Source of the DNA: Phyto melanocephala
Lineage: Eukaryota > Arthropoda > Insecta > Diptera > Rhinophoridae
DNA length: 64,000 nt
NCBI GenBank assembly: GCA_941918925.1
Contig: OW799233.1
Span: forward strand, 144,772,223-144,836,222
Reading direction: 5' to 3'
In this document: positions 9,172 to 49,494 of the stretch, piece after piece
Layout of the letters: every line of letters starts with the position of its first letter
Numbering within the stretch: the first letter of the stretch is position 1
Translations under genes and position numbers: made by a program
Notes under the pieces: generated by a model
Database searches by the model: none
What the model saw: the letters and a program-made list of their open reading frames with translations, nothing else
What the model was told of the DNA's origin: nothing

Positions 9172-9865
9172 TTTATACCCTTCACCTGTGTTGCACAAGG
9201 GTATATATAGCTTTGTCATTCCGTTTGTAATTTCTACAATTTTCATTTTCGAACCCATAAAGTATATATTTTCTGAAAGCTTATGAATAGAGGAGTCGAT
9301 TAAGTCCTGACCGTCTGTCCGTCTGTCCATGTGTTAGTTGAAATCAACTTTTAGAAGCAATTATATGTTCCTCAGCTCTGTATATGATATCAATCTCTTG
9401 GAAATATCCAGGAATGAATCGTTATTGAAATTCAGTACAATCGCCCCATAACTTTCTGAGATATGAGCAAAAAACCACGACCACCTCGTTTTTTTACACA
9501 ATTACAACAACAACATACATACATACATACATATATTTAAAAAACATACAAAAAAAAATTACAAAAAAAATATATTGAAAATAAAAAAAAAAAATAACAA
9601 AAAAAAATTAAAACATATTAAAAAAAATTTAAAAAAATTTAAAAAAAAAATATGAAATATAAATAATATATTAAATAAAATAAAATAAAATTTTTTTGGC
9701 TCAGCTGGGATTCGATGCCACATTTATTCTAACCAGTATATACATAAATATGTACGTATTTTATATGAGATGAATGGTGATACAAACAATTGTTATTGCA
9801 TGACTACACGTTGTGAAGGGTATATAAGATTCGGCACGGCCGAATATAGCACTGTTACTTGTTTT
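9172..9865 (+). mobile_element. HINE-B copy 1 (complete, about 0.69 kb)
   Basis: The 5' end TATACCCTTCACCTGTG pairs with CACAAGGGTATATA. The shared core TTTGTCATTCCGTTTGTAA and CCCATAAAGTATATAT follows, then (GTCY)n at about 9309-9330 and a long A-rich stretch. GGCTCAGCTGGGATTCGATG comes next, and the 3' end is GGGTATATAAGATTCGGC-ACG-GCCGAAT...CTTGTTT. The two proto-microsatellites (TA-rich and GTCY) are the known signature of mini-me/DINE-1-like elements in flies. Confidence 0.85.
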
Positions 9866-10725
9866 AATTTTTTTTTTTAGTTTGTTTTAATTTTTATTTT
9901 TTGTATACCTTAAACACTATTTATTAGACTATATATAGTTGTTACAGAAATATTTCATTCATGTGGGGCTTTGTTGATTGTCGACAAAAATTGCTCGTAC
10001 AAAGTTTCAACTGCATTTCGTTTACAGTTTTTTATATACGACATCAATTTTTTTTTTTTGCATGGGGGATACCATGCCCCCTACTAAAGTCCTACTTATT
10101 ATAAAAGTGACTCGTACAAAGTTTCAAATGACTAGCTGCTATAGTTATATATAAAGTGTGTTTGAAGGAAAAATTTAGCCGCAACATTTTTGTGATAATT
10201 TTTAAACATTAAAGCCAAAATTTTTTAAAATTATTAAAGTCAATCGAATTTTTTTTTAAATGTGTTATTTCAATTTTAACTTATCCTCCTCTATAGAAAA
10301 ACTTAAAAAATCTCAAATACTCTTTACATGTGTGCATGTAAACAGTAAAAAAAAATTATGAGTTTTTTATAGTAAAAAAATGATTTGGAAATATTTTAAA
10401 AAAATACTTAAATCTTCTACAATATACATATAATCAAAAACAAAAGAGATCTTTTAAAATTCGTTATTAAAAAAATATAGTTATATTCATTCAACTCGTA
10501 TCTTAAAAAATAAAACTTTTCAGGATAGACAAAAAAACCGGTTCATCTTTTTATACTTCAGTGTTTGGTTAAAAGTTTAAATGCAATTATTAAGTAATTG
10601 ATTGTATTTATGTGTATTAGTAGTAATAATATACTTATCTTTTTTAGTTAAAGCATCGTTTGATATGACAAAGTCAAAACCGTATTTTTTAAGATACGAG
10701 GTTGAGGAAGTAAGGCACCGATATG
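9866..10725. other. Unannotated AT-rich stretch
   Basis: No gene or repeat recognised. Confidence 0.5.
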
Positions 10726-13235: not shown

Positions 13236-13748
13236 TAAGAGTGTCATATTTGTTTCTTAACCGTTCTTAAATGTTCATGCTTGCTTTGGTAAAACCTCGG
13301 TTGACACTATGAACTTTATATATACTGTATTCGCAAGGTGTTCTAAAATTAAATCTTTTGATATAATAACATAAAAAATATAAATTTTTGAAATGACCCT
13401 TTAAAGCCAAGTGCGATATATCAAATTTTGATTGTCAATTTTATTATATTTTTGATAATAGATCTTTTAAACGAATAACGAAGGACCGGCGTATAATTAT
13501 TACAGACGGTTCGGCTTAGCAGATTCTTAAACGTTCGCCGCTTTTACTTGAAAAGGTATGACAACATTAAAAACATACATACACAGTAGTATAACTTGGG
13601 AACAACAATATTTTTTTTAAACTATTGACAAATTCTAGAACATTATAATATGCCATGTTAAGACACCTTGTGAACACAGCAATAATTTAAAAAAAAATTA
13701 TATATTTATATTTTTAAATTTATTTGTTACACTATTTTTTTATGATTA
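13236..13748. other. Unannotated AT-rich stretch
   Basis: Nothing recognised. Confidence 0.4.
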
Positions 13749-15173
13749 TTATACCCGCCACCAAAAAAATGGTGGGGGTATATTCATTTTGTCATTCCGT
13801 TTGTAACACATCAAAATATCCATTTTAGACCCCATAAAGTATATATATTCTGAATCAGGATTTGATTTGATGACAATCTAGCTATGTCCGTCCGTCTGTC
13901 CGTCTGTCCGTCTGTTGAAAGCACGATAGAGGTCGCACCGAAAAAGCTAGGGGGCTCAAATTTTGCCAGAATCTTTCTTATAGACAAGGTTTGTTTGGTA
14001 TTGAAAATGGGCTAAATCGGAATATTAGGAAGAGAGTTATAGCTCGAAAAGCAAGAGTAGGTCGAAAAAACCGTGTCCTTCGAACATCGAATAAAATGGA
14101 ATTGTGTCCAAACGCATTAACGTAGACTCATGAAACTCCGAATATATATTTCCTGAGTAAAAACAATATTTTTCAAAATTTCAAAAATTGCTGTCCCAAA
14201 AAGTTTGGGTGACACTCCCACTTTAACGCCTACCTCCCATAACGGTTTATCTTAAATTCATGTCATTTCTCTATTGACAAAGTTTTTGGGAAAATAAATG
14301 ACTATATTGAAATGTCTTAGTTGTATTTATTAGCAGAAACTTTATTAACACGCCTACTTTAACGCTCACTTTCATTGAAAGACTACATTTACAAAAACAT
14401 TTTAGTAGCATATCGAAGTTATAAAGGGTGGTTAAATTTTAAGGACCGATGTTGAATTTAAATAAAATACAAATTATTTAGGATATTATTATTATTTATT
14501 TTTATAATTATAATATTTGTATGGTTCAATTATGTATTTAACAAAATATCGGCCAAATGAACCCCCCCCCTTGGTGCCACTCCTCTATATGATGGTTCAA
14601 AGTTTCAATGACAATATTGATGCTCAATTGTTGGGCATGATGATGAGGCGACGTTGACTGCTCTTTTGTTACACTATCGCAAAAACCAGCAGTGGTTCCC
14701 ATTCAACGAACTAATAAGGCATTCACAGATTTTCTAACATTTTGTATGACCTGTTTTGCAGAAATTTAAATATTTTTTACAATTCTCCCGATTGTGAACG
14801 ATTATGTTGATCAACAGAATTACGAAGTGCACAAAATGCATTTTGATTTGAACGCCCATTTTTTAAAAAACCTGAATAACTTTAAAGCGTTGCTCACTTG
14901 CGTATCTTTCCACGGATCAAATTGAGTAAGTTTGAGATTGAGAAATGTGAAGTGAAATGCAGAAAACAAATTTAAAGACTAGGTGTGGTTCACCTTCAAC
15001 ATGGGCCCTTAAAATTTAACCACCCTCTACAAAGAAAGTGATACATATTTTATTATAAAGAGATTATTCTATAGCGATTAACAAAATAATAAATATTGTG
15101 CTTTAAATGTACACAAAATTGGTGGTGGGTATAAAAGATTCGGCACAGCCGAATATAGTGCTCTTACTTGTTT
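13749..15173 (+). mobile_element. HINE-A copy 3 (both ends, internally deleted, about 1.4 kb)
   Basis: It opens with the palindrome ATACCCGCCACC-A7-TGGTGGGGGTAT and carries the CATTCCGTTTGTAACAC core, TATATATTCTGAATCAG and (GTCY)n at 13887-13916. Near 14193 it jumps to a late part of the ~288-bp module, so the region holding TTAGGAGAGGAGTTATCGAT in other copies is missing. The mariner relic (14424-15027) and the normal 3' hairpin end follow. Confidence 0.92.
14424..15027 (-). pseudogene. Mariner relic inside HINE-A copy 3
   Basis: It is TA-flanked, with AAGGGTGG...CCACCCTC termini. The minus strand carries the same helix-turn-helix remnant as in copy 2. A poly-C run near 14564 is longer here than in other copies. 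Confidence 0.75.
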
Positions 15174-15307
15174 TTTTTTTTTTTTGAAACATATAGTTTA
15201 ATTGAGAAAATAAATAATTGTTATATTTTTTTTAACTTATATGTTTGCTCTAGAATATTAAAAGATTTGTACTCTTAATTTTCTTACGAAGGATAATTAA
15301 ACTGTAA

Positions 15308-17851: not shown

Positions 17852-17859
17852 TCTATATA

Positions 17860-18782
17860 AAGGGTGTTTTTTTAAGCCCGATAGAACTTGAAATTGTAAA
17901 AAATAACACAAAAAATTAAATTGTAATCAAAATTTTTTTTTTATTCGAAAGATCAATGCGTGACATTAACATTTGAAAATGATTTCGGGCATATGGGCAC
18001 CGCGGCTGTTCTTGACGAAGCGCATTCTAGACGTCCAATTTTGGGCCACTTTTTCGAGCACTGCTGGCCGTATGTCACGAATAACACGAACAATGCTGGC
18101 CTCCAAGGCGTCAATTGTTGCTGGTTTATCAGCATAAACCAGTGACTTCACGTAGCCCCACAGGAAATAATCGAGAGGTGTCAAATCGCACGACCTTGGA
18201 GGCAAATTGACAGGTCCATTTCTCGAAATCAACTTATCGCCAAATTTTGATTTCAATAAGTCGATGGTTGCGTTCGCCGTATGGCACGTAGCGCCATCCT
18301 GTTGAAACCACATCTCCTCCGGATCAATGTCATCCATATTTTCAAACAAAAAATCATTGATCATGGTGCGGTAACGATCTCCATTGACCGTAACGCGAGC
18401 TCCGGCCTCATTTTTGAAGAAATAAGGTCCGATGATGCCATCAGCGTGAAAACCGCACCAAACGGTGCATTTTTCTGGATGTAATGGAGTCTGTAGGGTC
18501 TCTTGTGGATTGGTCTCGCTCCATATGCGGCAATTTTGCTTATTAACAAACCCGTTAAGCCAAAAATGCGCCTCATCGCTGAACACAATTTTGCGATAAA
18601 ACAACGGACGTCCAGAATGCGCTTCGTCAAGAACAGCCGCGGTGCCCATATGCCCGAAATCATTTTCAAATGTTAATGTCACGTATTGATCTTTCGAATA
18701 AAAAAAAAATTTTGATTACAATTTAATTTTTTGTGTTATTTTTTACAATTTCAAGTTCTATCGGGCTTAAAAAAACACCCTT
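17860..18782 (-). mobile_element. DD41D mariner with inverted-duplicated tail (923 bp)
   Basis: TA flanks (17858-17859 and 18783-18784) enclose termini AAGGGTGTTTTTTTAAGCCC. The inverted repeats are about 180 bp long (17860-18039 and 18604-18782), not the usual ~30 bp, and differ at only a few positions. Because the left arm contains the genuine C-terminal codons and 3' UTR, the right arm is an inverted copy of the element's own 3' end that replaced its 5' half. The spacing DD41D matches the rosa-type mariners known from Ceratitis (family knowledge). Confidence 0.85.
17966..18613 (-). pseudogene. DD41D mariner transposase, catalytic part only
   Basis: The open frame spans 18682-17966 (238 codons), but residues 1-23 are antisense of the protein's own C-terminus, so the real transposase begins near codon 25 (GRPLFYRKIVFSDEAHFW). 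The catalytic triad is present: D36 in FSDEAHF, D129 in WFQQDGATCHTA and D171 in CDLTPLDYFLWG. There are 92 residues between the first two (as in Mos1) and 41 between the last two. The C-terminus SRGAHMPEIIFKC is complete. The N-terminal helix-turn-helix DNA-binding domain, about 150 residues in mariners, is missing, so the product could not bind termini in the usual way. The intact frame and the nearly identical arms point to a recent rearrangement. Confidence 0.85.
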
Positions 18783-18797
18783 TATATAAAAGTGAAA

Positions 18798-24100: not shown

Positions 24101-25406
24101 TACTATTTATATATGTGCAAGTTGTTTTTGTAAAAAAAAAGTTGAAATTGAACCACCAAAATAATATGTGTTTCTTAACAAGAGGGCACACACAAAAATC
24201 AAATTTCTGGTCTCTGGTATTGCTCACTAAAAATAATCACTTAATAAAACTAGTACTTCAAAACTAAAATAACATAGTATTAGTGAGGAGGAAAGGATTT
24301 TACTTAATACAAAAATAAAAAAATGTCTGCTATAAAATTTATGCGGGAATGGATATGCCAATAGAGTTTTAATTTGTTCAGTAAAATTTAATGATTTTTA
24401 ACGTTTTCAAAGTAAAAACTTTCAAACGTCGAATTTTACTATTGGATTCATTTGACATTATTTTGCTATAGAATTATCTTTTGCTACCATTTCTCTCAAG
24501 AAAAGCTTTCAAGTTTGTCTGGAGAAGAGCTTTGTATTATGCTTCATTTATTTCTAAAAGAGAAAATGCCAACTCCACCACCGAAATTTCTTTCGGAAAA
24601 GTAACATGATTTCTTATGTAAATCTGTACTGTACGAGTTACATCCATATGGACCGTTTAAGTTTAACTGTTAAAATATTTAGTCAAAAGTGCAGGGGGAC
24701 ATAAAAGCAATATCTGAGTGTACTTAAATAAATAAAGTGCTCTTAATTTTATAACTAATTTCAACTGTTTTTGATTGCAATGAAAGAACTCCAAGTTTAT
24801 GTAAAGGAAATAAGCCAACGTTTATAAAAGGTATATATGTAACATTATTTATCTAGTCCGATGAAATTGCGTAATACATGTTGTGGTTTTGTACCTGTAC
24901 CGCAAAATGCAAGTATATTGCGCATAAATGTGCTACATACTGTTAATAATTAATTGTGATAAAATCAATATTTATGCATTTATTTCATTTATAGCTTATT
25001 TTATTCCCAGTACTTATACCTAACTTTTATATTAAGAAGGTAAAATATTTCTTATTTTAAGTTTTTAGGAGTTTTTAAAGTCCAAAAAAAATTTTTTTCA
25101 TTAAAAGTATTTTTTTTCGCCACCAATTTCTGAATAACTCCGAAACAGTTAAAAATGGAGATTGACTTAAAGGTAATTTTATCTCGCATTTCTTGGTTTT
25201 GTAATTATTCAAATCGAACAAGCCGTTAAGGAGTTTGCAAACGGAATGACAAACTAATATACACACATTTACACTTTCTTATAAAACCATTGTATTTTTG
25301 TTATTGTTGCTGTCGAAACTAACAAAATTCCTGTTTAATATGATGATATAACAATTTTTTCTTAAAGATCTACTAAATACTTTGTGGCTGCATTGCGTTG
25401 TTTTTT
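21118..25406. other. 4.3 kb without a recognisable gene
   Basis: This is the largest unannotated block. About 21640-22100 is less A/T-rich and could hold an old unique sequence or exon, but no splice-consistent frame convinced me. Near 25240 GTTTGCAAACGGAATGACAA resembles the HINE core on the minus strand and may be an old fragment. The rest is A/T-rich with no signal. Confidence 0.45.
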
Positions 25407-27084
25407 TTATACCCGCCACCAAAAAAATGGTGGGGGTATATTCATTTTGTCATTCCGTTTGTAACACATCGAATATCCATTTTAGACCCCATCAAGTATA
25501 TATATTCTGAATCAGGGTTTGACTTGATGACGATCTAGCTATGTCCGTCCATCTGTCCGTCTGTTGAAAGCATGAAAGAGTTCGCACCGAAAAAGCTAAG
25601 GGGCTCAAATTTTGCCAGAATCTTTCTTATAGACAAGGTTTGTTTGGTATTGAAAATGGGCTAAATCGGAATATTAGGAAGAGAGGTATAGCTCGAAAAG
25701 CAAGAGTAGGTCGAAAAAACCGTGTCCTTCAAACATCGAATAAAATGGAATTGTGTCCAAACGCACTAACGTAGACTCATGAAACTTCAAATATATATTT
25801 CCTGAAAAAAAAAACAATATTGTTCCTTGAAAATTATCTAAATCCATGCATTAGGAGAGGAGTTATCGATCAAAATGTACGAAAATTTATACCGCACAGT
25901 GTATTTTTCGGTATATTTACAAACAAAAACGTCATAAAAGCAACAAAATTCGATGTACGACTCTGAAATTTTGCACACTTTGCGTTTTGGTGAGACGCTT
26001 TTTTGTAACGGAAAATCGATGTGCCACGCCTACTTTTACTTCAACCTCCCATATAACGTTTTACCTAAAATTCATATAATTTCTCAATTAATAAACATTT
26101 TGGAATAATAAAAAGCTATATTGAAACAACTTAGTTGTACTCATTCGCAAAAATAATTTTGACACGCCTACTATAACGCCCACTTTTCACGTTATCTACC
26201 GTTAATGAAATTTAAAAGCTCATAAAACCACCAAAATTAGAGGTATAATGATCAAATTTGCTACGTATATCCTTCTAATCAATGTAATTGTTGCGCCAAA
26301 AAGTTTAAGTGACACGCCCACTTTAACGCCTACCTCCCATATAACGGTTAATCTTAAATTCATGTAATTTCTCTATTGACAAAGTTTTTGGGAAAATAAA
26401 GGACTATATTGAAATATCTAAGTTGTATTTATTAGCAGAAACTTTATTGACACGCCTACTTTAATGCCCACTTTCATTGAAAGACTACATTTACAAAAGC
26501 ATTTTAGTAGCATATCGAAGTAATAAGGGGTGGTTAAATTTTAAGAGACGATGTTGTTTTTAAATAAAACACAAATTATTTAAGAAATTATTATCATTTC
26601 TTTTTATAATGATTATATTTCTATGGTTCAATTATGTATTTAACAAAATATCGGCCAAATCGCCCCCCCATATTTTTTACAATTCTCCCGATTGTGGACG
26701 AATTTGAACGATTATGTTGATCAAAAGAACTACGAAGTGCACAAAATGCATTTTGATTTGAACGCCTATTTTTATAAAAAACCTGAATAACTTTAAAGCG
26801 TTGCTTATTTGCGTATCTTTCCACGGATCAAATTGAGTAAGTTTGAGATTGAGAAATGTCAAGTGAAATGCAGAAAACAAATTTAAAGACTAGGCGTAGT
26901 TCACCTTCAACATGGGCCCTTAAAGTTTAACCACCCTCTACAAAGAAATATGTGTCACATTTTATTATAAAGAGGTTATTCCATAACGATTAACAAAATA
27001 ATAAATATTGTGCTTTAAATGTACACAAAATTGGTGGTGGGAATAAAAGATTCGGCACAGCCGAATATAGTGCTCTTATTTGTT
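25407..27084 (+). mobile_element. HINE-A copy 4 (both ends, about 1.68 kb)
   Basis: It has the 5' palindrome, (GTCY)n at about 25544-25563 and GCATTAGGAGAGGAGTTATC. About one and a half ~288-bp modules follow, then a shortened mariner relic (26526-26938) and the 3' hairpin end. Inside the relic the ~170 bp after a CCCCCCC run (26665) are deleted relative to copies 2, 3 and 5. Confidence 0.92.
26526..26938 (-). pseudogene. Mariner relic inside HINE-A copy 4
   Basis: On the minus strand ERYANKQRFKVIQVFYKN leads into ALRSSFDQHNRSNSSTIGRI. This is the clearest view of the captured mariner helix-turn-helix. Here the frame is open from about 26824 to 26621 because the internal deletion removed a stop. 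The last ~18 codons are read-through into the relic's other end and are not transposase. Confidence 0.78.
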
Positions 27085-29553
27085 TTATATGGAGTTTGAC
27101 AGCAGCTCCCATGAAATAGTGGACAGAATGCTGGGCTTAAATAATTAGCTTCGTAAGATCTTTTAAATCTTTGTGTTAATTTTAGATATAATTTAAATTG
27201 ACATGAGGCTATTGTACTGCACCGCAGTGAATATCATAATACAACTTAATGTTTCGACTATCCTTTATCATTTACTGATCTTACATATTTGTTGTATTTC
27301 TATAATCGTTTAGTTTGTAATAAATGGTTGAGGTTAAAACTTTAATTGTGGTATTCAAAATAACGAACATAATTACTGCCTTGTTAGGATTATTTTTTCC
27401 AAAATGTGTAGACATAAACATCATCTGTTTTTAGCATGTTGCAGATCAGAACGTTAAAACAATTTAATAGTCTTCAATTTTATTGCTTTTTGATTAGAAT
27501 ACCAAAAACTATTCTTGAAAAAATTTCTAAATCAAAGGCTTTTAATACACTTAAATAAATTCAGTTTCTTCTAATGTTATTAAGAACTTCAATAGAATTT
27601 TAAATTAAAAAAAAAATATTTCTACGTGTTCATATACCCTAGTGGAGTTGACTATATCAACAAATTGAATTTGTTTTTTTTTTAAGATACTTTTTTCTTT
27701 TTTTGTATTAGGATAAAGTTGACTTTATCCATAAAACGTGCGCTCCATTGAACTTTTTTATTTGGCCGCACCAATATCAAACTCACCAAGTAAATCACGG
27801 TAATTGTTTGGCATCGTAAAGGTTTTTTCTATTTTTATTTTTGTATGCTTTTATACAAACACCTAAAAATAAAGCATATGAAATAAAGATAGAATATGTG
27901 AACATAAATGTATATATGTAGTTTAAAAGAATGAATTCTTAGTTGAAACTTAACGCAAAGCATTAAACTTAACGTAGGGCATTTTGTTAATGTATCAATA
28001 TAACTTTTTAAATTAATAAATCTGAAAAGAGTTTTAAAGTGTAACGATTCAATAGTTAGTAGACATAAGTGCCAATCTTCTCAAAATAATTTTAATATAG
28101 TTCACGACTAGAGGCGAACATCGATACCAGAGTGAAGATTTTATTTTTTTTTTTCAAAAAATAAGTCCTTAAACTTAGTTACCTAACACATGTCACATGC
28201 CTTTTAAAATTTTATTATATTTTACCTGTGTCAACTTGACGCAACATCAATTAGAGAACAACGTTTTATAGAAAATTTCCCTTAAAAATAACTCACTTAT
28301 TTCTTTAGGAAAAACTTGTTCCGGAGAAAAAATTTTTTATGAGATTTTTCTGCAGCACGATTTTTTCATTTTAGCATCAAATCAAAGCCGAGAGATACTT
28401 ATTTAAATTAATCAACGGTCAAATAGTCAAATACTTGCTTAAATAAGCGATAATTAATTTTCTAATGCTACGAGATGTTTCTTACTCCAAATAACAACAA
28501 TATTATTATTGAAATTTGTTATAACTAAATAAAAATTTATTCAAGTTAGAAGTTTTCCAAACAAGCTTATTTCTCAATATCTCTCAAAAAGAATGGCGTC
28601 AAACTGCCCGTATTAAAAAGTTGTTCCGTCTAGAAATTTGTTTAAAAACCCAGCAAAAAATTAGAGATTACCATAAGAACAACTTGCCACATAATGACTT
28701 ACTTTTGATGTTGCTAAAATTTATTTGTCGATTACCAAACACATTACATTAAATAATTAAAATAGCAAGCGGTAGTTGAATGTATTACTTGAGTTATAAA
28801 AGAAGGCCTTACAAATTGTTCAAATGAAATTAGTTTTTAAAACAAAAACATACACATTTTTGAACTCTCCGCTTAATTATTTTTGATTAAAAAGTAATGA
28901 GTTACATTTTTGCAACTAATTTATTTTACTAATTTTTTTATTTTAATGTGTGCAACAAATATTTAAAGTTTTAGTAAAAAGATGCATATAAAATACATTT
29001 AATTAACATTAGTGATAAAAAAACAAGAAATTTGATTTTTTTCATTACAAACTTTTTAAAAATTTGTGGCGTTTTTAAATGTCAAACTGTACTTAAAAAA
29101 ATAGTGGCGAACATTTTTTTTTTACAATCACCTTGCAAAGTTAATACGCCTTGTACCTATATAAAGAACTTTGTCAACCAAAAAATTTAAATGAAATTTT
29201 GGTTTTATCGCTTGAAAAGTAATGAGATTGCAAACAATTTCTCTCTTAAGCCAATTAAAGTAACTCAAAAATATTCCAACTCGATTACCTTTTGAATATA
29301 ATTTTATAAAATGTAATCGAGTTGCTTTTGCATGTTTTTTAAATAAGAAATTAAACAAAAAAAAATTATGAGAGTAAAAAATAAAGAAGTTATACAGTTA
29401 TTTCTTATGAAAAAATATTGAAAAAAAATTCTTTTAAGTGCAAAACATTAGTTTTGAAGTGTTCATCGACATAAACAGACGTGTGTGTGTTAAATAAAAT
29501 AGAAAAGACAATAGTATAAAAATGTCGCGTAAGTTGCTATATTAAAATCATAA
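27085..29553. other. Unannotated AT-rich stretch
   Basis: No gene or repeat that I can name. A short mirror, GGATAAAGTTGACTTTATCC, lies near 27711. Confidence 0.45.
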
Positions 29554-31230: not shown

Positions 31231-31857
31231 AAGTTTTTATTATAAATTAAAAATTTCTTCTTCAACAAATAAATATTTTTCTATCAAAATTTCTGGTACC
31301 AAAGGGGGCAAGAGTCATTGCATGTGTGTAAATACTGTATATAGTGTATTACGAGTAATTATATAGAGACTTCAACTGGACACTGTCTATGTTTTGGTTT
31401 CAAAAATTTCCAGATTTTTATGGATTTGGAGTTGTGTCAAGATGTAACTAAATTTTTTTAAATAAATAAAATATGTTAGCTTCCAAAGAACTTATTTAGG
31501 ATTTTTAAAAAAAGAAGAACTCGTTGTTTTAAAAATATTTAAAAAATCTAATAAATTTAATATCATTGACTTTACTTCATATATGGCGCTAAGCCTATGC
31601 AATGACCTTAATAGGACAACTGCAGATTATTAACATATATCTGCAGCTTTACAAAATTCGATCAGAAAAAATTTCAATAGGGTTAAGTCCCTAAGTCTTA
31701 GCAATCAGCTAAACTTACAATTTCATGCTAGTACTAAAATGTTCAAATAATAAAGTTAGATCATTTGTTCCTGCTATTCAATTATATAAAATTCTATGGT
31801 GAATAATTAACAACTTTTTATAAACAAATATATAAGTAAAAACCATTTTTGAAAAAA
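31231..31857. other. Unannotated spacer
   Basis: A/T-rich; nothing recognised. Confidence 0.4.
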
Positions 31858-32003
31858 AAACAAGTAAGAGCACTATATTCGGCTGTGCCGAATCTTTTAT
31901 ACCCACCACCAATTTTGTGTACATTTAAAGCACAATATTTATTATTTTGTTAATCGCTATGGAATAATCTCTTTATAATAAAATATGTATCACTTTCTTT
32001 GTA

Positions 32004-32606
32004 GAGGGTGGTTAAATTTTAAGGGCCCATGTTGAAAGTGAACTACACCTAATCTTTAAATTTGTTTTCTGCATTTCATTTGACATTTCTCAATCTCAAA
32101 CTTATTCAATTTGATCCGCGGAAAGATAAGCAAATGAGCAACGCTTTAAAGTTATTCAGGTTTTTTATAAAAATGGGCGTTCAAATCAAAATGCATTTTG
32201 TGCACTTCGTAATTGTTTTGATCAACATAATCGTTTAAATTCGTCCACAATCGGGAGATTGGTAAAAAATATTTAAATTTCTGCAAAACAGTTCTGTATA
32301 AAATGTTAGAAAATCTGTGAATGCCTTCTTAGTTCGTTGAATGGGAACCACTGCTGGTTTTTGCGATAGTGTGGCAAAATAGCAGTCAACCTCGCCTAAT
32401 CATCATGCCCAACAATTGAGCATCAACATTGTCATTGAAAATTTGGAGCATCAGATAGAGGAGTGGCGCCAAAAATGGGGGGGCCAATTGGCCGATATTT
32501 TGTTAAATACATAATTGAACCATACAAATATTATAATTGCAAAAAGAAATACTAATAATATCCTAAATAATTTGTCAACATCGGTCCTTAAAATTTAACC
32601 ACCCTT
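32004..32606 (+). pseudogene. Mariner relic inside HINE-A copy 5
   Basis: It has GAGGGTGG...CCACCCTT termini with TA at 32002-32003 and 32607-32608. The plus strand holds the helix-turn-helix remnant and, further on, codons resembling the second DNA-binding half (CDSVAK...HHHAQQLSI, near 32360-32420), interrupted by stops. The DDD domain is absent. Confidence 0.78.
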
Positions 32607-34138
32607 TATAACTTCGATATGCTACTGAAATGCTTTTATAAATGTAGTTTTTCAATGAAAGTGGGCGTAAAGTAGGCGTGTCAATAAAGTTTCTGTTAAC
32701 AAATTAAAGTTAAATATTTCAATATAGTCCTTTATTTTCCCAAAAACTTTGTAAATAGAGAAATTACATGAATTTAAGATAAACCGTTATATGGGAGGTA
32801 GGCGTTAAAGTGGGCGTGTCACCTAAACTTTTTGGCACAACAATAACATTGATTAGAAGGAAAAACGTAGCACATTTGATCATCATACCTCTAATTTTGG
32901 CGGTTTTATGAGCTTCTAAATTTCATTAACGGTAGATTACGTGAAAAGTGGGCGTTATAGTAGGCGTGTCAAAGTTATTTTTGCGAATGAGTACAACTTA
33001 GGTGTTTCAATATAACCCTTTATTATTCCAAAGTCATTAGTAGTAGAGAAATTATATGAATTTTAGGTAAAACGTTATATGAGAGGTGGGCGTAAAAGTG
33101 GGCGTGGCAACTTAATTTTCTACCACAGTAATGACATTGCCTAGGGTGATATTTGTAGCAAATTTTATCATCATACCTCTAATTTTGGCGGTTTTATGAG
33201 CTTTTAAATTTCATTAACGGTAAATAACGTGAAAAGTGGGCGTTATAGTAGGCGTGTCAAAGTTATTTTTGCGAATGAGTACAACTTAGGAGTTTCAATA
33301 TAGCCCTTTGTTATTCCAAAATCTTTATTAATAGAGAAATTATATGAATTTTGAGTAAAACGTTATATGGGAGGTGGGCGTAAAAGTGGGCGTGGCACCT
33401 TAATTTTCTGGCACAGTAATGACAATGCCCAGGGGGATATACGTAGCAAATTTTATCATCATACCTCTAATTTTGGCGGTTTTATAAGCTTTTAAATTTC
33501 AATAACGGTGGATAACGTGAAAAGTGGGCGTTATAGTAGGCGTGTCAAAGTTATTTTTGCGAATAAGTACAACTTAGGAGTTTCAATATAGCCCTTTATA
33601 ATTCCAAAATCTTTATTAATAGAGAAATTATATGAATTTTGAGTAAAACGTTATATAGGAGGTGGGCTTAAAAGTGGGCGTGGCACATTGATTTTCCGTT
33701 ACAAAAAAGCGGCTCACCAAAAAGCAAAGTGTGCAAAATTTCAGAGTCGTACATCCAATTTTGTTGCTTTTATGACGTTTTTGTTTTTAAATATACCGAA
33801 AAATACACTGTGCGGTATAAATTTTCGTACATTTTGATCGATAACTCCTCTCCTAATGCATAGATTTAGATAATTTTTGGGGAAAAATATTTTTTTTACT
33901 CGAGAAACATATATTCGAAGTTTCATGAGTCTACGTTAATGCGTTTGGACACAATTCCATTTTATTCGATGTTTGAAGGACACGGTTTTTTCGACCTACT
34001 CTTGCTTTTCGAGCTATAACTCTCTTCCTAATATTCCGATTTAGCCCATTTTCAATACCAAACAAACCTTATCTATAAGAAAGATTCTGGCAAAATTTGA
34101 GCCCCCTAGCTTTTTCGGTGCGACCTCTATCGTGCTTT

Positions 34139-34203
34139 CAACAGACGGACAGACGGACAGACGGACAGACGGACAGACGGACAGACGGACAGACGGACGG
34201 ACA
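34139..34203. repeat. (GACGGACA)n = (GTCY)n array
   Basis: Seven to eight 8-bp units, longer than in most other copies. An identical-looking array is at 45497-45560. Confidence 0.9.
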
Positions 34204-34341
34204 TAGCTAGATCGTCATCAAATCAAACCGTGATTCAGAATATATATACTTTATGGGGTCTAAAATGGATATTTCGATGTGTTACAAACGGAATGACAAA
34301 ATGAATATACCCCCACCATTTTTTTGGTGGCGGGTATAATA

Positions 34342-35038
34342 ATTATTAAAAGCAGATAAAGAATTGGTGGAACTTTGATCTTATAGTAAGCTTTAAAAAC
34401 CACTTCTTTAATAATTGAGTTATACACTAAAAAAATAATTTTCACTAATTTTACTTAACTACTACAATAAAAACTTTTCCCTGCAAATAATGTTACATTC
34501 CGAGATCAACTGATAACAGCATTTTTCAGGATTATCTGGTCATAGACCATGTTATTAAAGCTAACGACAATTACAATTTTATTACAATTTTTTATATTGC
34601 TAGCACGAACCATATAGTAGTTCCTTTGAGTCTTCAAAACATCATGATCAGTTTGATCATTTATAAATAATTTTAAAAATTCCAGATATGTTTCAAAAGC
34701 TTTTTAGAAAATAGAATACATCAGATAATAAAACAGCAAATTCTTTACTTTCTCTGCTCCACGAATATTTTAAATTACTAGTAAGTGAGTTTTTATACTA
34801 TATGCACACTTCAAAGTATTTGTGTGGATGTTGATGTGGGCAAAGTTTAAAGTTGCAAACTTTGATTTTATAACCATAACTTATGTACAAAAATTATAGG
34901 TATTTTTTTCGTCGGCTTGCTGTGGAGGACCAACAAGGTTTCGCTGTTCTGACATTCTCCATATAGAACAGTGTTTCTTAGAATTTTTGTATTTGTATTT
35001 CAGAATAAAAAAAAAATTGGTCATTTATTTATATATTT
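34342..35038. other. Unannotated spacer between two HINE-A copies
   Basis: Nothing recognised. Confidence 0.4.
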
Positions 35039-38157: not shown

Positions 38158-39027
38158 TCGGGTGTCCCAACTAGAACGCAATTTTTAAATTTGGCGCCAT
38201 TCGAAGTGTCATTGTTTGACACTTGAACAATTGTTATTGTTTGCTAGTATAAGGTACGAGGTTAGTAAAAATGAAGCGCTACACGAATGAACAACGCATT
38301 CTTATTGTGAAATTGTTTTACCAAAATGGTGAAAGTTTTGCGGCTACAGTTCGCAAATTGCGATCAATTTGGGGTCACATTTCCATCTTGATGGCTTCGT
38401 CAATAGGCAGAATTGTCGCATTTGGGGTGAGGAGAATCCTCGAGTGATTCACGAGAAGCAAATTTTTTTTTATCAAAATGAGGCAGGTCAAGCGCAAACA
38501 GTCAATGGTGTTCGGTATCGTGAAATGATAACCAGTTTTTTCTTGCCTAGAATTGAAGAAATGAATGTGGAGGGCATGTAGTTTCAACAAGATGGCGCCA
38601 CATGTCGTACAGCCAGAGAAACAATTCAATTGCTGCATCACTCATTTCCCGGTCGTGTTATTTCGCGTTTTGGAGACCAGAATTGGCCGCCTAGATAGTG
38701 TGATTTAACACCTTCAGATTTTTTTCTTTGGGGTTTTTTGAAGTCGATGGTTTACGCGAATAAGCCGACGACGACTCAAGCCTTAAAAGAAGAAATTGGA
38801 CGCTGCATTAATGAAATACCGCAGCATTTATGCAAAAAGGTCATTGAAAATTTCATTAAAAGATCGCGTGTGTGCCAGCAATGCCGCGGCGGCCATCTGC
38901 ACGATATATTGTTCCATACAAAACCTCATTCTGTCTGCTTTACGATACAATAAAGTTTCACGATTTTTTTTTAAATATCTGTGTTTTATTTAAAATTTAA
39001 AAATTGCGTTCTAGTTGGGACACCCAT
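38158..39027 (+). mobile_element. Second DD41D mariner (870 bp, deleted)
   Basis: TA lies on both sides. The inverted termini share GGGTGTCCCAACTAGAACGC and then AATTTTTAAATTT, at least 33 bp. The interior is a transposase with deletions; a full element would be about 1.3 kb. Confidence 0.9.
38271..38953 (+). pseudogene. DD41D mariner transposase with two deletions and two stops
   Basis: ATG at 38271 opens KRYTNEQRILIVKLFYQNGE then SFAATVRKLRSI (helix-turn-helix). A deletion near 38370 shifts the frame and removes most of the DNA-binding region plus the first catalytic aspartate, resuming at HFHLDGFVNRQNCRIWGEEN. A second deletion near 38460 drops the block before NEAGQAQTVNGVRYREM. The second catalytic D survives in FQQDGATCRTA and the third in CDLTPSDFFLWG, 41 residues apart. 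Stops sit at 38579 (before FQQDG) and 38697 (before CDLTP). The C-terminus RGGHLHDILF is retained. It is a dead copy but its termini are intact, so it could have been moved in trans. Confidence 0.88.
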
Positions 39028-39029
39028 TA

Positions 39030-40347
39030 TATGAATGCATGTCTAAAAACACTGTGTACTATAGACTATACTTTACAAACATTTTAGTTTTTCAGCAAAG
39101 TATGAATAGGTTCATACACGCAGACGTTAAAGTGTGTATATGTGTGTGTGAACGATACTTTGGTACTGAACTATTAATGAGGTTATAAATTTTAAGTATA
39201 TTGATTTTGAATTTATTACAAAAGTTTGACTTTATTCAAACAAAACCATTAAAATAAGAAGAATACCTGAGGGATCTCGTTTCTTTTTTTTCAATATTCC
39301 TAGAAAAGTAATATTAAAACTAAGGATAATTTAAATATTTTTTTGTACAAAACATTTATAAATATATATATTATGTAATTTTAAAAAGTTTTAATATTCT
39401 ATTATACTATTTACTTTTTATTTGGCATCGAAAAAACAAAAAATAATTTTTTTTTTTTTGATATTTTTAACTTTGATTTTGTTACAAAAAAAGTTAGTCA
39501 AGTATTGTAGTATAAGTCATGCAGTGACATAAAACTTTAAGCTTAAAAAGGTAATACTGAGAAATGTTTTCACCTTCTATTTAGTTAGATATATCTATAT
39601 CAATACTAATTCTATAGTTTAGTCAAATTGGTATTTAAAGCTTACAGAATCAACTAAATATTTGAAGTTCGAATATTTTCCAAATAAAAAAAACACTACT
39701 TATATTACAAGATAAGTAAAAATGGTGCAAATGTAATCTTTAACTAGATATTTTTTTGTACATGAGTATGTCACTGTACTCTTCCTAAAAGGCTGTGACA
39801 TTTGTTATGTAATTTAATACGTGTATTCAATAAAAATGATATATTTTTACACTTCCTTAATATAAGCGCTGCTGTAAAGACGTAGTCCTGTTATTAATTT
39901 TTAGAAGATTTCGAGTCCTAATTTTTAAGCTAAAGTGCAAACAGAATATAAACTATTTTAATTTCAGGTTGATATGAAGGCACATATATTCTTTAGGTAA
40001 TCGGAGTCAAAAAAGAATTTGTTTGTTTATGTGTTTTTATATATGAAGTTCAAAATTATAAATAAATCAGAGAACAGAGAGAGAATTGTTTTTTTCTATG
40101 GACTTTCACAGCTGACGTTTAAATTTTTCTTAAATTTGCCTCGTTTATTATTGTCACGAAGCCAACACATACGAACTGCTAATTATGTCTAAAATTTCGG
40201 CTTTTTTTTAGTCATTTTTATAGTTTTTGGATGCAATATTATAAGTAATTATTTCATCAATATCCATTTTTTATTTGGCTTTTGTTTACATGTTGCAGCT
40301 GATAATGTGCTCATATTTCCAATCAAAGATGTACTTATTTAAAACGA
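39030..40347. other. Unannotated AT-rich stretch
   Basis: Nothing recognised. Confidence 0.45.
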
Positions 40348-42762
40348 AACAAGTAAGAGCACTATATTCGGCTGTGCCGAATCTTTTATACCCACCACCA
40401 ATTTTGTGTTATATTTATTATTTTGTTAATCGCTATGGAATAATCTCTTTATAATAAAATATGTATCACTTTCTTTGTAGAGGATGGTTAAATTTTAAGG
40501 GTCCATGTTGAAGGTGAACTATACCAAGTTTTTAAGTTTGTTTTCTGCATTTCACTTGACATTTCTCAATCTCAAACTTACTCAATTTGATCCGTGGAAA
40601 GATACGAAAATGAGGAACGCTTTAAAGTTATTCAGGTTTTTTATAAAAATGGGCGTTCAAATCAAAATGCATTTTGTGCACTTCATAATTGTAACTGTAA
40701 CAAATATTTAAATTTCTGCAAAACAGGTCTGTATAAAATGTTAGAAAATCTGTGAATGCCTTCTTAGTTCGTTGAATGGAAACCATTGCTGTTTTTTGCG
40801 ATAGTGTGGCAAAATAGCAGTGAATCTCGACTCATCATCATGCCCAACAATTGAGCATCAACATTGTCATTAAAAATTTGGACCATCAGATAGAGGAGTG
40901 GTGCCAAGGATGGGGGGGGGGGGGCATATGGCCGATATTTTGTTAAATACATAATTGAACCATACAAATATTATAATTGCAAAAAGAAATAATAATAATA
41001 TTCTAAAAAATTTGTGTTTTATTTAAATTCAACATCGGTCCTTAAAATTAAACCACCTTTTATAACTTCGATATGCTGCTAGAATGCTTTTGTAAATGTA
41101 GTCTTTCAATTAAAATGGGCGTTAAAGTAGGCGTGTCAATAAAGTTTCTGCTAATAAATACAACTTAGATCTTTCAATATAGTCCTTTATTATTCCAAAA
41201 CCTTTATTAATAGAGAAATTATATGAATTGTAGGTAAAACGTTATATGGGAGGTGGGCGTAAAAGTAGGCGTGGTACCTTAATTTTCTGGCACAGTAATG
41301 ACACTGCCTAGGGGGATATACGTAGCAAATTTTATCATCATACCTCTAATTTTGGCGGTTTCATGAGCTTTTAAATTTCATTAACGGTAGATAACGTGAA
41401 AAGTGGGCGTTATTGTAAGCGTGTCAAAGTTATTTTTGCGAATGAGTACAACTTAGGTGTTTCAATATAGCCTTTTATTATTCCAAAATCTATATTAATA
41501 GAGAAATTATGTGAATTTTAGGTAAAACGTTATATGGGAGGTGGGCGTAAAAGTAGGCGTGGCACCTTAATTTTCTGACACAGTAATGACTTGCCTAGGG
41601 GGATATACGTAGCAAATTTTATCATCATATGTCTAATTTTGGCGGTTTTATGAGCTTTTAAATTTCATTAACGGTAGATAACGTGAAAAGTGGGCGTTAT
41701 GGTAGGCGTGTCAAAGTTATTTTTGCAAATGAGCACAACTTAGGTGTTTCAATATAGCCCTTTATTATTCCAAAATCTTTATTAATAGAGAAATTGTATG
41801 AATTTTAGGTAAAACGTTATATGGGAGGTGGGCGTAAAAATGGGCGTAGCACCTTTATTTTCTGGGACAGTAATGATATTGCCTAGGGGGATAGACGTAG
41901 CAAATTTTGTCATCATACCTGTAATTTTGGCGGTTTTATGAGCTTTTAAATTTCATTAACGATAGATAACGTGAAAAGTGGGCGTTATGGTAGGCGTGTC
42001 AAAGTAATTTTTGCGAATGAGCACAACTCAGGTGTTTCAATATAGCCCTCTATTATTCCAAAATCTTTATTAATAGAGAAATTATATGAATTTTAGGTAA
42101 AACGTTATATGGGAGGTGGGCTTAAAAGTGGGCGTGGCACATTGATTTTCCGTTACAAAAAAGCGTCTCACCAAAAAGCAGAGTGTGCGAAATTTCAGAG
42201 TCGTACATCCAATTTTATTGCTTTTATGACGTTTTTGTTTTTAAATATACCGAAAAATACACTGTGCGGTATAAATTTTCGTACATTTTGATCGATAACT
42301 CCTCTCCTAATGCATAGATTTAGACAATTTTCGACGAAAAATTTTTTTTTTACTCAGGAAATATATATTCGAAGTCTCATGAGTCTACGTTAATGCGTTT
42401 GGACACAATTCCATTTTATTCGATGTTCGAAGGACACGGTTTTTTTGACCTACTCTTGCTTTTCGACCTATAACTCTCTTCCTAATATTCCGATTTAGCC
42501 CATTTTCAATACCAAACAAACCTTGTCTATAAGAAAAGTTCTGGCAAAAGTTGAGCCCCCTAACTTTTTCGGTGCGACCTCTATCGTGCTTTCAACAGAC
42601 GGACAGACGGACAGACGGACGGACATAGCTAGATCGTCATCAAATCGAACCCTGATTCAGAATATATATACTTTATGGGGTCTAAAATGGATATTTCGAT
42701 GTGTTACAAACGGAATGACAAAATGAATATACCCCCACCATTTTTTTGGTGGCTGGTATAAA
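40348..42762 (-). mobile_element. HINE-A copy 7 (complete, 2.4 kb)
   Basis: It has the 3' hairpin end, mariner relic (40480-41060) and four modules. The CATCATACCTCTAATTTTGG landmark falls at about 41335, 41622 and 41910, so the period is ~288 bp. A short (GTCY)n and the 5' palindrome (GGTGGCTGGTAT, one change) follow. A poly-G run of about 12 lies near 40912. Confidence 0.95.
40480..41060 (+). pseudogene. Mariner relic inside HINE-A copy 7
   Basis: Termini are GAGGATGG and CCACCTTT next to TA, so both are slightly eroded. A deletion near 40690 removes the end of the helix-turn-helix block. Confidence 0.72.
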
Positions 42763-43214
42763 AACTATCGAAGAGTTCGTTACGTACGTCGAACTATGGG
42801 CGGAGCACTGATAGTATACGCAAAGAAAAAATATGGTTGTGATAACCATAATCGAAGAGCAACATACTATGATTGAATTGTATGATTATGGTTAAAACAT
42901 ATAATGGTTACCAGTTATCATTATTATGTTTAATTAAGGTATCATTCAATAAACATACATATGACACAATTAAAATCGACAATCTTTGCTTTTTTACGGC
43001 AAATTATTGTCTTTTGCACACATATTGATTGTACTTACCAATTTAATTGCAATTTTTGTACCAATATTTTTTTACATTTTCTCATTTATTAGTAAATTTT
43101 CATTAACTTTTCAAAATTTTTGTTATTTTTTTTTTTTTTTTTGCCATCTTAAACTTTTAAGATAATAAAAATTTATTCAACAAGAAGAAGAATAGTTGAA
43201 ATCAAATTATTATT

Positions 43215-45699
43215 AAACAAGTAAGAGCACTATATTCGGCTGTGCCGAATCTTTTATACCCACCACCAATTTTGTGTACATTTAAAGCACAATATTTATT
43301 ATTTTGTTAATCGCTATGGAATAATCTCTTTATAATAAAATATGTATCACTTTCTTTGTAGAGGGTGGTTAAATTTTAAGGGCCCATGTTGAAAGTGAAC
43401 TACACCTAATCTTTAAATTTGTTTTCTGCATTTCATTTGACATTTCTCAATCTCAAACTTATTCAATTTGATCCGCGGAAAGATAAGCAAATGAGCAACG
43501 CTTTAAAGTTATTCAGGTTTTTTATAAAAATGGGCGTTCAAATCAAAATGCATTTTGTGCACTTCGTAATTGTTTTGATCAACATAATCGTTTAAATTCG
43601 TCCACAATCGGGAGATTGGTAAAAAATATTTAAATTTCTGCAAAACAGTTCTGTATAAAATGTTAGAAAATCTGTGAATGCCTTCTTAGTTCGTTGAATG
43701 GGAACCACTGCTGGTTTTTGCGATAGTGTGGCAAAATAGCAGTCAACCTCGCCTAATCATCATGCCCAACAATTGAGCATCAACATTGTCATTGAAAATT
43801 TGGAGCATCAGATAGAGGAGTGGCGCCAAAAATGGGGGGGCCAATTGGCCGATATTTTGTTAAATACATAATTGAACCATACAAATATTATAATTGCAAA
43901 AAGAAATACTAATAATATCCTAAATAATTTGTCAACATCGGTCCTTAAAATTTAACCACCCTTTATAACTTCGATATGCTACTGAAATGCTTTTATAAAT
44001 GTAGTTTTTCAATGAAAGTGGGCGTAAAGTAGGCGTGTCAATAAAGTTTCTGTTAACAAATTAAAGTTAAATATTTCAATATAGTCCTTTATTTTCCCAA
44101 AAACTTTGTAAATAGAGAAATTACATGAATTTAAGATAAACCGTTATATGGGAGGTAGGCGTTAAAGTGGGCGTGTCACCTAAACTTTTTGGCACAACAA
44201 TAACATTGATTAGAAGGAAAAACGTAGCACATTTGATCATCATACCTCTAATTTTGGCGGTTTTATGAGCTTCTAAATTTCATTAACGGTAGATTACGTG
44301 AAAAGTGGGCGTTATAGTAGGCGTGTCAAAGTTATTTTTGCGAATGAGTACAACTTAGGTGTTTCAATATAACCCTTTATTATTCCAAAGTCATTAGTAG
44401 TAGAGAAATTATATGAATTTTAGGTAAAACGTTATATGAGAGGTGGGCGTAAAAGTGGGCGTGGCAACTTAATTTTCTACCACAGTAATGACATTGCCTA
44501 GGGTGATATTTGTAGCAAATTTTATCATCATACCTCTAATTTTGGCGGTTTTATGAGCTTTTAAATTTCATTAACGGTAAATAACGTGAAAAGTGGGCGT
44601 TATAGTAGGCGTGTCAAAGTTATTTTTGCGAATGAGTACAACTTAGGAGTTTCAATATAGCCCTTTGTTATTCCAAAATCTTTATTAATAGAGAAATTAT
44701 ATGAATTTTGAGTAAAACGTTATATGGGAGGTGGGCGTAAAAGTGGGCGTGGCACCTTAATTTTCTGGCACAGTAATGACAATGCCCAGGGGGATATACG
44801 TAGCAAATTTTATCATCATACCTCTAATTTTGGCGGTTTTATAAGCTTTTAAATTTCAATAACGGTGGATAACGTGAAAAGTGGGCGTTATAGTAGGCGT
44901 GTCAAAGTTATTTTTGCGAATAAGTACAACTTAGGAGTTTCAATATAGCCCTTTATAATTCCAAAATCTTTATTAATAGAGAAATTATATGAATTTTGAG
45001 TAAAACGTTATATAGGAGGTGGGCTTAAAAGTGGGCGTGGCACATTGATTTTCCGTTACAAAAAAGCGGCTCACCAAAAAGCAAAGTGTGCAAAATTTCA
45101 GAGTCGTACATCCAATTTTGTTGCTTTTATGACGTTTTTGTTTTTAAATATACCGAAAAATACACTGTGCGGTATAAATTTTCGTACATTTTGATCGATA
45201 ACTCCTCTCCTAATGCATAGATTTAGATAATTTTTGGGGAAAAATATTTTTTTTACTCGAGAAACATATATTCGAAGTTTCATGAGTCTACGTTAATGCG
45301 TTTGGACACAATTCCATTTTATTCGATGTTTGAAGGACACGGTTTTTTCGACCTACTCTTGCTTTTCGAGCTATAACTCTCTTCCTAATATTCCGATTTA
45401 GCCCATTTTCAATACCAAACAAACCTTATCTATAAGAAAGATTCTGGCAAAATTTGAGCCCCCTAGCTTTTTCGGTGCGACCTCTATCGTGCTTTCAACA
45501 GACGGACAGACGGACAGACGGACAGACGGACAGACGGACAGACGGACAGACGGACGGACATAGCTAGATCGTCATCAAATCAAACCGTGATTCAGAATAT
45601 ATATACTTTATGGGGTCTAAAATGGATATTTCGATGTGTTACAAACGGAATGACAAAATGAATATACCCCCACCATTTTTTTGGTGGCGGGTATAAAAA
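43215..45699 (-). mobile_element. HINE-A copy 8 (complete), twin of copy 5
   Basis: Same length and order as copy 5 with no indel across about 2.48 kb, including the long (GACGGACA)n array and the poly-G run. The flanks differ from those of copy 5, so this is a separate insertion. It sits inside the 42.8-kb MITE. Confidence 0.95.
43361..43963 (+). pseudogene. Mariner relic inside HINE-A copy 8
   Basis: Same as the relic in copy 5, shifted by 11,357 bases, including its TA flanks and stops. Confidence 0.78.
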
Positions 45700-47239: not shown

Positions 47240-48605
47240 TCTGAAGAGTAGTGTTAAAAAGTAGTGCGAACTTTTCACAAATTCCTGGTCTATGCAGAAT
47301 TAATTTTTAAAACTAATTGATTTGACAGCACTATCCAAAATAAAATAAATATGGCCGTCACATCCAATCGCGCCAATTAAATGATCTGTTAATACTAATG
47401 ACCTCTAAAATTTCTAATATACGAGTATCCTTACAGCTTTGCACCATTTCTAAAAAAATCTAAAAATTTGATTTGATATCAAGTACAGTTTCTATTATTG
47501 TAGTAACCAACTAAAAAAAAATAAAAAAGAAAACATTCAAATAGAATGCATGTATTCTGTAACTATAAAAATAAAATATTCCAACATTACAAAATGGTTA
47601 CAATTTTATAACTGTTTTACCCTAATTTGCAAATTTTGAAAAACTTTTTTCTGTGATTCTTTTAGACTTTTTTTATTTCCTTCTATCCGCAGTTTGCTAA
47701 GAAAATAGTTATCCCAAAAGGAGACGAAATTTAAGTGCTTCTTATAGTAACAATAACTATGGTAAGTTAGTTTTACTTTTTTTTTACTCGTTTAAAAGAT
47801 TATCGTAGAAACAAAAAATAATACTTTTTTTGTAGAACTCAAGTATGTGGCTGCTTTAAAATAAAACCTTACTAAACACGCAAAAAAAATTAAGAAAAGA
47901 AACGAAAAAACATACACACTCCCACACTTTCGATAATGTTCAACGCCCAGACCCAATACTTTCATACATTTATGAAGAGAGAACGATTGAATGTACTTAT
48001 GTACGAGTGTGTCAAATAATACAAAATAACATTATGTTGTAAAATTTTATAGTACTTACTGGTTTGGCATTAAACGAACTATGAGTACAATTACTGCTGA
48101 ATGAATGGTTGACATTTTTCTCCCCAATCTAATGTATTTTCAGATAAAATGCAGAAAAATGTAAAAAAAGATTAAGAAAACTTAACTAAAAGTACTTATT
48201 GGTATTGAAAAACAAAAAATTTGCAAACAAAGTAAAAGGCACTTTTGTGTATTAGGTCTGTTAGAGAAAAATTTTAGCTCTGAAGCCCAAGGAAAACTTA
48301 AAATACAACAGAAGTGACGAAATATTAAAAGTGAATATCTCTAAGCATATTTAGGAAAAAACGTTCATCTTAACTACACACATACACTATACATGCCTAT
48401 AAGTCGAAGACTTAATATCAAAAAGGCGTACCTCGCTTTTTACTACTTAAAAAAACGAAATGCGTTAGGGCTTTTTTATGTAGCTATAAGTCCGTTAACT
48501 TAAATCAAAGTTCACCAAATTTATTAGGAACCATGTGTTTGTATGTGGACTACCAGTACACGCTTAAAACGCTATTTTGTTAACAATCGCGATATGCCCT
48601 CTACA
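47240..48605. other. Unannotated AT-rich stretch
   Basis: Nothing recognised. Confidence 0.45.
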
Positions 48606-49494
48606 TACCCTCCACGAAAAAAAATTGTGCAGTTATATTAATTTTGTCATTCCGTTTGTAACACATGAAAATATCCATTTAAGACCTCATCAAGTAAATA
48701 TTTTCTGAATCGAGGTTTAATTTGATGTCGATCTATATATGTCCGTCTGTCTGTCCGTCTGTGGAAAGCACTATAGAGGTCGGACCAGAATAAGAAACAC
48801 ATTTGTTATTGAAAATGGGCTAAGTCTAAACATTTGGAATAGATTTATAGCTCGTAATACAAGAGTACGACAAAAAAAACATATTCTTCTAATATCGAAT
48901 AAAATCCAATTGTGTCCAAACATATTAACGTAGAGCCATGAAATTTCGAATGCATGGGTAAAAAATTCTTAAATTTATGAGTTAGAAAAGCAGTTAAAGA
49001 TCAAAATGTACGACAATTTATACCGGTATATTCAAAATTTAAAACGTAAAAAAACTGACTGACTGTATGATTCTGAAATTCTGCAAACAATGCTTTTTAA
49101 TTGAAGACTTTTTATTAACGTAAAATAAATGTGACACGATCTTTTACGAACACTTCTCATATAACGCTTTATCTCAAACTCATATAATTTTTTATGAATA
49201 AAGATTTTGAAAGAATAAAGGACTATTTATCGAAATATCTAAATTATATTTATTAGCAGAAACTATTTTGACACGCCTACTTCAACGCCCACTTTCATTG
49301 AAAAACAAAATTTACGAATATATTTTAATAGCGTATCGAAGTTGCACAAAGAAAGTGATATTCATTTTAGTATAAAGAGATTATTGCATAGCGATTACTG
49401 TTATTAACAAAGCAATAAATTTTGTGTTATAAAAGTACATCACATTGGTGGTGGGTATAAAAAATTCCGCACAGCCGAATGTAGTGCTCTTACT
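48606..49494 (+). mobile_element. HINE-A copy 9, old and internally deleted
   Basis: Both ends are visible: CCTCCACG-A8-TTGTGCAG in place of the palindrome, the TTTGTCATTCCGTTTGTAAC core, (GTCY)n at 48741-48762, and the 3' end GGTGGTGGGTATAAAAAATTC...CTCTTACTT. Most of the mariner relic is gone. It is strongly diverged from the others. Confidence 0.85.

Follow-up and report, generated by a model that had tools for sequence, protein, structure and literature searches.

That transposons nested inside other transposons can move with their carrier has long been known in general. The carrier examined here resembles the HINE or DINE-1 elements, which are non-autonomous Helentrons, as these are described in PMC4067079, in its subTIRs, 3' palindrome, tandem repeats (in some copies), lack of coding capacity and, apparently, T-rich flanks. 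In the accessible part of that description no carried transposon with intact ends is mentioned, whereas the HINE-A family reported here carries one. The same source describes a CR1-type endonuclease in Helentrons, which is likewise a case of a Helentron gaining sequence from another class of transposon, perhaps by insertion; however, that endonuclease is thought to be functional, while the present cargo, a miniature inverted-repeat element (MITE), is dead. The Helitron Hel-2, found in a baculovirus insertion with the transposon TE-LNCR nested between its non-autonomous ends (PMC4344730, as far as its accessible text goes), is similar in arrangement but represents a single insertion, whereas thousands of junctions, empty sites, free copies and full-length relatives can be found here in one genome. 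For Calliphora vicina, of which 600 kb have been surveyed, DINE-1-like elements of up to ~820 bp and nested insertions are reported, with no carried mariner in the part of the account available (PMC3630058).

The cargo has its closest described counterpart in the rosa mariners and MITEs of aphids, which, in the available portion of PMC5490172, have a DD41D triad and a terminal inverted repeat (TIR) of ~30 bp starting AAGGGTG, both as seen here. The aphid MITEs are 349-578 bp long and arose by internal deletion, like the MITE described below, but their TIR differs after the first seven bases, and here one MITE copy lies inside a Helentron derivative. A literature search by title and abstract, with most subscription papers outside its scope, found no report of a HINE that had multiplied a mariner MITE within it. 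It is known in principle that one transposon can carry another, and what is new here is the scale and the resolution at which this can be followed.

The analysis began from 64,000 nucleotides of the fly Phyto melanocephala, which we refer to as the window. The HINE-A copy at 31853-34342 of the window is a 2.49-kb DINE-1-like Helentron derivative on the minus strand, with its 5' end at 34342, its 3' end at ~31853 and internal repeats offset by ~288 bp. According to the structural rules in the accessible text of PMC4067079, a HINE has a subTIR near its 5' end, the inverse of this some tens of bases from its 3' end and a palindrome 8-35 nt from the 3' end. The copy at 31853-34342 has the subTIR TTATACCCGCCACCA at its 5' end, the inverse TGGTGGTGGGTATAA upstream of the 3' hairpin, and the hairpin itself, ATTCGGCACAGCCGAAT, followed by ~16 nt to the end at ACTTG. 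The opposite direction, in which the hairpin at the 5' end is taken as the 3' end, was rejected by the same rules. T's occur at most of the window HINE ends that we listed and are absent at the old copy at 49.5 kb. Since these rules make the minus strand the HINE sense strand, the mariner block discussed below, which reads on the plus strand and lies ~150 bp from the HINE 3' end, is antisense to its carrier, as an initial reading of the window from its sequence alone (the sequence-only reading) had proposed.

There are 13 HINE 3' ends in the window, and in nine of these the sequence reaches the position at which the block is found. Eight of the nine carry the block and one, the copy at 48605-49495, is empty, so the claim that every HINE-A copy retaining its 3' half has the block holds for eight copies and fails for the ninth. 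Six of the eight blocks have both ends. Besides that at 32004-32606, these are the plus-strand blocks at 43361-43963, in the HINE at 43215-45699, and at 40480-41060, in the HINE at ~40341-42768, and the minus-strand blocks at 26526-26938, which has a further internal deletion (HINE ~25404-27086), at 14424-15027 (HINE ~13738-15179) and at 6708-7322 (HINE 3' end ~7468). The other two, both on the minus strand, are cut off at the right: the block at 61491-61992 lies in a HINE-A 3' part reaching to ~62141, and that at 2-217 is cut by the window edge and lies in a 3' part reaching to ~369. The remaining four 3' ends consist of a truncated end at 56482-56640 on the plus strand, fused to 52 bp from the block interior, an end at 57.7 kb deleted across the site, and two from another HINE family. 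This second family, at 9199-9872 and 62166-62841, has copies that are 82.6% alike, a similar 3' hairpin and a different core, and is without the block. The window also contains a LINE reverse transcriptase frame at 3919-5175, for which the best named matches among 120 listed are from Haematobia irritans, the first at 55%.

The 20-nt block terminus, AGGGTGGTTAAATTTTAAGG, has 14 matches in the window at three or fewer mismatches, forming six facing pairs and two single ends, and none in 100 shuffled sequences. Measured from 20-mer to 20-mer the six paired blocks are 411-613 bp long, and TA lies one base beyond both 20-mer ends in all six, in agreement with the ~400-615 bp block with inverted termini and TA on both sides that had been noticed from the sequence. 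In the block at 32004-32606 the TA dinucleotides lie at 32002-32003 and 32607-32608, directly flanking it. Its TIRs, at 32004-32035 on the plus strand and 32575-32606 on the minus strand, are perfect over 20 bp and match at 29 of 31 bases, and both TIRs are perfect in four of the six paired copies.

The interior of the block retains two pieces of a transposase on the plus strand. That at 32136-32264 matches the first helix-turn-helix of the transposase P0120 (residues 7-49, 63% identical; tblastn E=1.3e-15 in the window) and that at 32407-32511 matches the C-terminus (residues 328-361, 51%; E=5.5e-4). P0120 has 41 residues between its last two catalytic aspartates. Through stops and frame changes, residues 1-101 of this protein are matched in the 61.9-kb copy and residues 325-361 in the 32-kb copy, so that the block matches ~100 N-terminal and ~30 C-terminal residues and lacks the catalytic part that would lie between the two. 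When the copies were read as a composite, the N-terminal piece scored 27.5 bits against Pfam DUF4817, for which the cut-off is 22.6, and many DD41D-type proteins among those listed also have DUF4817 in their precomputed domain annotation. A DD41D profile made from 92 of 120 listed proteins, those of 345-380 residues, scored 29.1 bits at the N-terminus and 10.8 bits at the C-terminus of the block consensus, with neither score reached in any of 500 dinucleotide shuffles (best 9.7). A protein search with the broken reading of the block returned 66 candidates, none at E<=0.001, and a search of the PDB with the N-terminal piece returned nothing up to E=1. Judged by homology, the block is a DD41D (rosa-type) mariner derivative, as the sequence-only reading had recognised. 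That reading had also noted the N-terminal helix-turn-helix, which is borne out by the DUF4817 and P0120 matches, but a C-terminal end is kept as well. In the HINE copies that could be scored the helix-turn-helix is a relic and no working gene, with its ATG altered and its reading broken by frame shifts and stops.

If the block entered an existing HINE, sites without it should resemble an occupied copy from which the block and one TA have been subtracted. The sequence predicted in this way is CTTTGTATAACTTCG, and the related minus-strand HINE without the block, at 49495-48605, reads CTTTGTGCAACTTCG. Around 49343-49346 this site has CTTTG-TG-CAACTTCG where CTTTG-TA-TAACTTCG was predicted; it is thus a decayed version, with TG for TA and C for T. 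The host genome of 740 Mb, in which the sequence-only reading had proposed that a single-TA site be sought, contains 5,451 matches to a 26-mer of the predicted site at three or fewer mismatches, against none for a reversed control. The 100 matches listed are all exact single-TA joins with no footprint, and in 29 of 30 loci fetched the site is bordered directly on both sides by 30 bp or more of HINE sequence. Searched with the same tolerance for mismatches, the genome has 12,651 matches to the occupied left junction and 10,422 to the occupied right junction, again with none for the reversed controls. These counts are of short junctions and not complete elements, are lower bounds since copies beyond three mismatches are missed, and do not tell which of the two HINE forms has been the more successful. 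Exact scans of viral contigs for the TIR and the HINE ends gave no matches, and a scan of bacterial and archaeal contigs for the TIR gave one 23-bp match that had no longer similarity and was taken as chance.

The mariner derivative also exists outside HINEs. A fragment at 1606-1865 on the plus strand of the window is 79.6% identical to the block, has kept the ATG and is without HINE flanks. A genome search with this fragment gave 2,972 candidates, of which 40 were scored and 30 fetched, one being the query itself; the free loci are the best hits to one fragment and not a random sample. Of the 29 left without the query, 26 are free of HINE matches in the 40 bp next to each end, two show HINE matches of just 19 or 24 bp, and one, L064, has HINE body on one side. 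Both arms are present in 23 of the 30 fetched loci, and 20 of these 23 are 581-627 bp long. Among the 17 that reach both TIRs, TA is found on both sides in ten (L064 included), on one side only in six and on neither in one. The free copies are thus short, retain both ends, share an internal deletion (see below) and are dispersed on their own, as would be expected of a MITE. The locus L064, at ~989-1769, has a free-type left end in unrelated DNA and a HINE-type right end, which indicates that free and carried copies can recombine. The majority sequence of the free copies is 69% identical to P0120 over 49 residues of the N-terminal helix-turn-helix and retains a 52-codon open reading from the ATG, so that before its capture the MITE may have coded for a DNA-binding segment by itself.

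Decayed full-length DD41D relatives came to light when the genome was searched with P0120. In two of these, L072 and L076, the two parts of the MITE lie ~670-690 bp apart within elements of ~1.28-1.29 kb. Of six relatives in which the catalytic positions were checked, L072 has the triad D, D, D, and in the other five one or two of these residues are gone. With TA duplication, a TIR of ~28-32 bp, an N-terminal helix-turn-helix and a triad that is deleted from the block and present in L072, the family has the features of rosa-type DD41D mariners. Using a strict motif, the deletion junction was detected in six of 29 free loci, 11 of 20 carried loci and four window copies, and in none of 12 full-length relatives, which indicates that free and carried blocks share one deletion; the source of a few bases right at the join is uncertain. 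The host genome also holds many DD41D genes of another family, ~53% identical to P0120, with frames of ~364 codons without stops. Elsewhere in the window a DD41D element at 17854-18788 has an inverted 183-bp duplication of its end (98.9%) and looks young, its frame being 96% identical to P0031, and another DD41D deletion derivative at 38160-39025 has perfect 33-bp inverted ends of different sequence.

For comparison with the free blocks a further 20 carried loci were chosen at points along the list of exact matches to the junction; they come from its first 100 entries, which lie in the first 19 Mb of contig C1, and are not a random sample. The right TIR is present in 16 of these, and 15 of the 16 have HINE body directly after the block, L086 being the exception. 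A first tree placed nine carried rows and 17 free rows on opposite sides of one branch (100/100, with a bootstrap that had not settled); it omitted six of the 23 two-armed free copies, in which the right end falls short of the TIR or a long insert is present, and counted L064 as free. This locus was left out of later trees as one-sided and recombinant, leaving 16 free rows. The second tree, from which the four of 20 carried loci without a right TIR (L083, L089, L097 and L099) were left out, again placed 18 carried and 16 free rows on opposite sides of one branch (100/99). In the third, 12 hand-chosen carried rows, with L087, L095 and L098 omitted because part of the block is replaced by another repeat, formed one clade (100/100, the bootstrap again not settled) among 16 free and three full-length rows. 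With the full-length relatives as outgroup, where the midpoint root also falls, the free copies arise star-like from the base and the carried copies are nested and branch stepwise.

The start codon also differs between the two groups. At the ATG position the carried copies have GTG or GCG in all 11 scored of the 20 sampled loci, in all seven scored in the window and in all eight of the near-identical loci L002-L009, while ATG is present in 16 of 19 scored among the 29 free loci (15 of 18 without L064), the others having ATT, ATA or ACG and none GTG or GCG; the position could not be scored in nine of the 20 carried and ten of the 29 free loci. Block and HINE-flank divergence are also correlated among the window copies, with r=0.90 over 15 pairs and 0.82 over the 10 pairs left without the near-identical copy.

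Evidence for movement of the block with the HINE comes from young copies. The HINEs at 31853-34342 and 43215-45699 are 99.96% identical over 2485 bp, their blocks are 100% identical, and the flanks beyond the HINE differ. Since the two copies stop being identical where the HINE ends, the block was moved along with its carrier. A search of the genome with the block gave 2,912 first-look candidates. Among the 40 that were scored, 30 reached the full score over 603 bp, and these 30 include the 32-kb and 43-kb copies of the window itself. The loci L002-L009 were fetched without the HINE 5' end, and their HINE parts within the sequence obtained are 99.3-100% identical. Together with the two window copies they have no mutual similarity in the ~1.36 kb beyond the HINE 3' end, and therefore represent separate insertions. 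The 20 sampled carried loci fall into several subfamilies, and two of these (L083 with L097, and L089 with L099) have spread although shared deletions had removed the right mariner end. The HINE evidently did not need that end to spread, as would be expected if the cargo is passive. In L087, L095 and L098 a palindromic repeat of ~145 bp stands in place of part of the MITE (GGCCGAATTACGGCA...TGCCGTAATTCGGCC), a third repeat layer in the same element.

We consider it highly probable that a DD41D transposon gave rise to a MITE, that the MITE inserted once into a HINE, and that it was then amplified with the HINE. A DD41D (rosa-type) mariner of ~1.28 kb would have lost ~670 internal bp, including the catalytic core, to leave a MITE of ~617 bp, which would have spread at TA sites, probably with a transposase from elsewhere. 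One copy would then have entered a TA ~150 bp from the HINE 3' end in antisense orientation. The HINE, with both ends kept, would have stayed mobile, presumably by rolling-circle replication through an autonomous Helentron, as HINE structure by itself suggests, and would have spread to over ten thousand sites with the MITE inside it as cargo, splitting into subfamilies. Slightly against this history stand the decayed state of the one empty site in the window and the missing TA at one or both ends of seven of the 17 free copies. We infer that the cargo was passive, and the enzymes that would have moved each stage are assigned on the same footing. It is unlikely that the MITE was more than a passenger, with its mariner ends or an altered HINE transcription or silencing helping the block-carrying lineage to replace the block-less one as the form of the young, identical copies.

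Four other histories would give a similar arrangement. TA is the target of mariners and HINEs offered it in thousands of places, so the MITE could have inserted many times independently at a preferred TA in different HINE copies; however, the carried copies examined share orientation, position and, where scored, a changed ATG, they form one branch in three trees, and their divergence follows that of the HINE flanks, which makes repeated insertion extremely improbable. It is just as hard to credit that the block has from old been integral to the HINE and that block-less copies have lost it. Occupied junctions do outnumber empty ones at the same mismatch limit, but no footprint is seen in the 100 empty sites listed, all of them exact joins at a single TA, the block exists free of the HINE, and it has full-length relatives. 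Spread of the block by a DD41D transposase acting on the embedded ends, rather than by the HINE, is suggested by the perfect TIRs of four of the six paired window copies and by the open DD41D frames of the other family in the host. This would not account for a near-identity of the 32-kb and 43-kb copies that covers the whole HINE and ends where the HINE ends, nor for the unrelated 3' flanks of L002-L009; it is contradicted for young copies and has, in our view, only the slightest chance of being correct.

The order of deletion and capture requires separate consideration, since the sequence-only reading held that the catalytic half was lost after insertion. A mariner could have entered the HINE whole and lost its catalytic part there, with free copies escaping later, and the single deletion junction common to the block and the free copies allows either to be the source. 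In the tree with the full-length outgroup, however, the free copies lie at the base with the carried ones nested, and the ATG is mostly kept in the free copies and not in the scored carried ones, so this order of events is very unlikely. The existence of free copies of ~600 bp with the same structure outside HINEs argues that the catalytic part was lost before the insertion. The central claim of that reading, one insertion multiplied with the HINE, is upheld by the single clade of sampled carried blocks and by near-identical HINE copies at unrelated sites, and the tests it proposed, on single-TA sites and on mariner profiles, turned out in its favour. Its order of events was wrong; as a whole it is partly supported.

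On the reading we prefer, of a MITE captured once and amplified with its carrier, one genome shows the stages of the process, from decayed full-length relatives and their deletion derivative, through a target still empty and a copy captured in it, to an amplified chimera with subfamilies. For annotation this is a warning that Helentron-type elements can produce mariner-like copy numbers in such genomes. For the HINE itself it means that ~600 bp of foreign cargo near the 3' end is tolerated with mobility kept, and the family provides a countable system for asking whether such a cargo helps, harms or is neutral.
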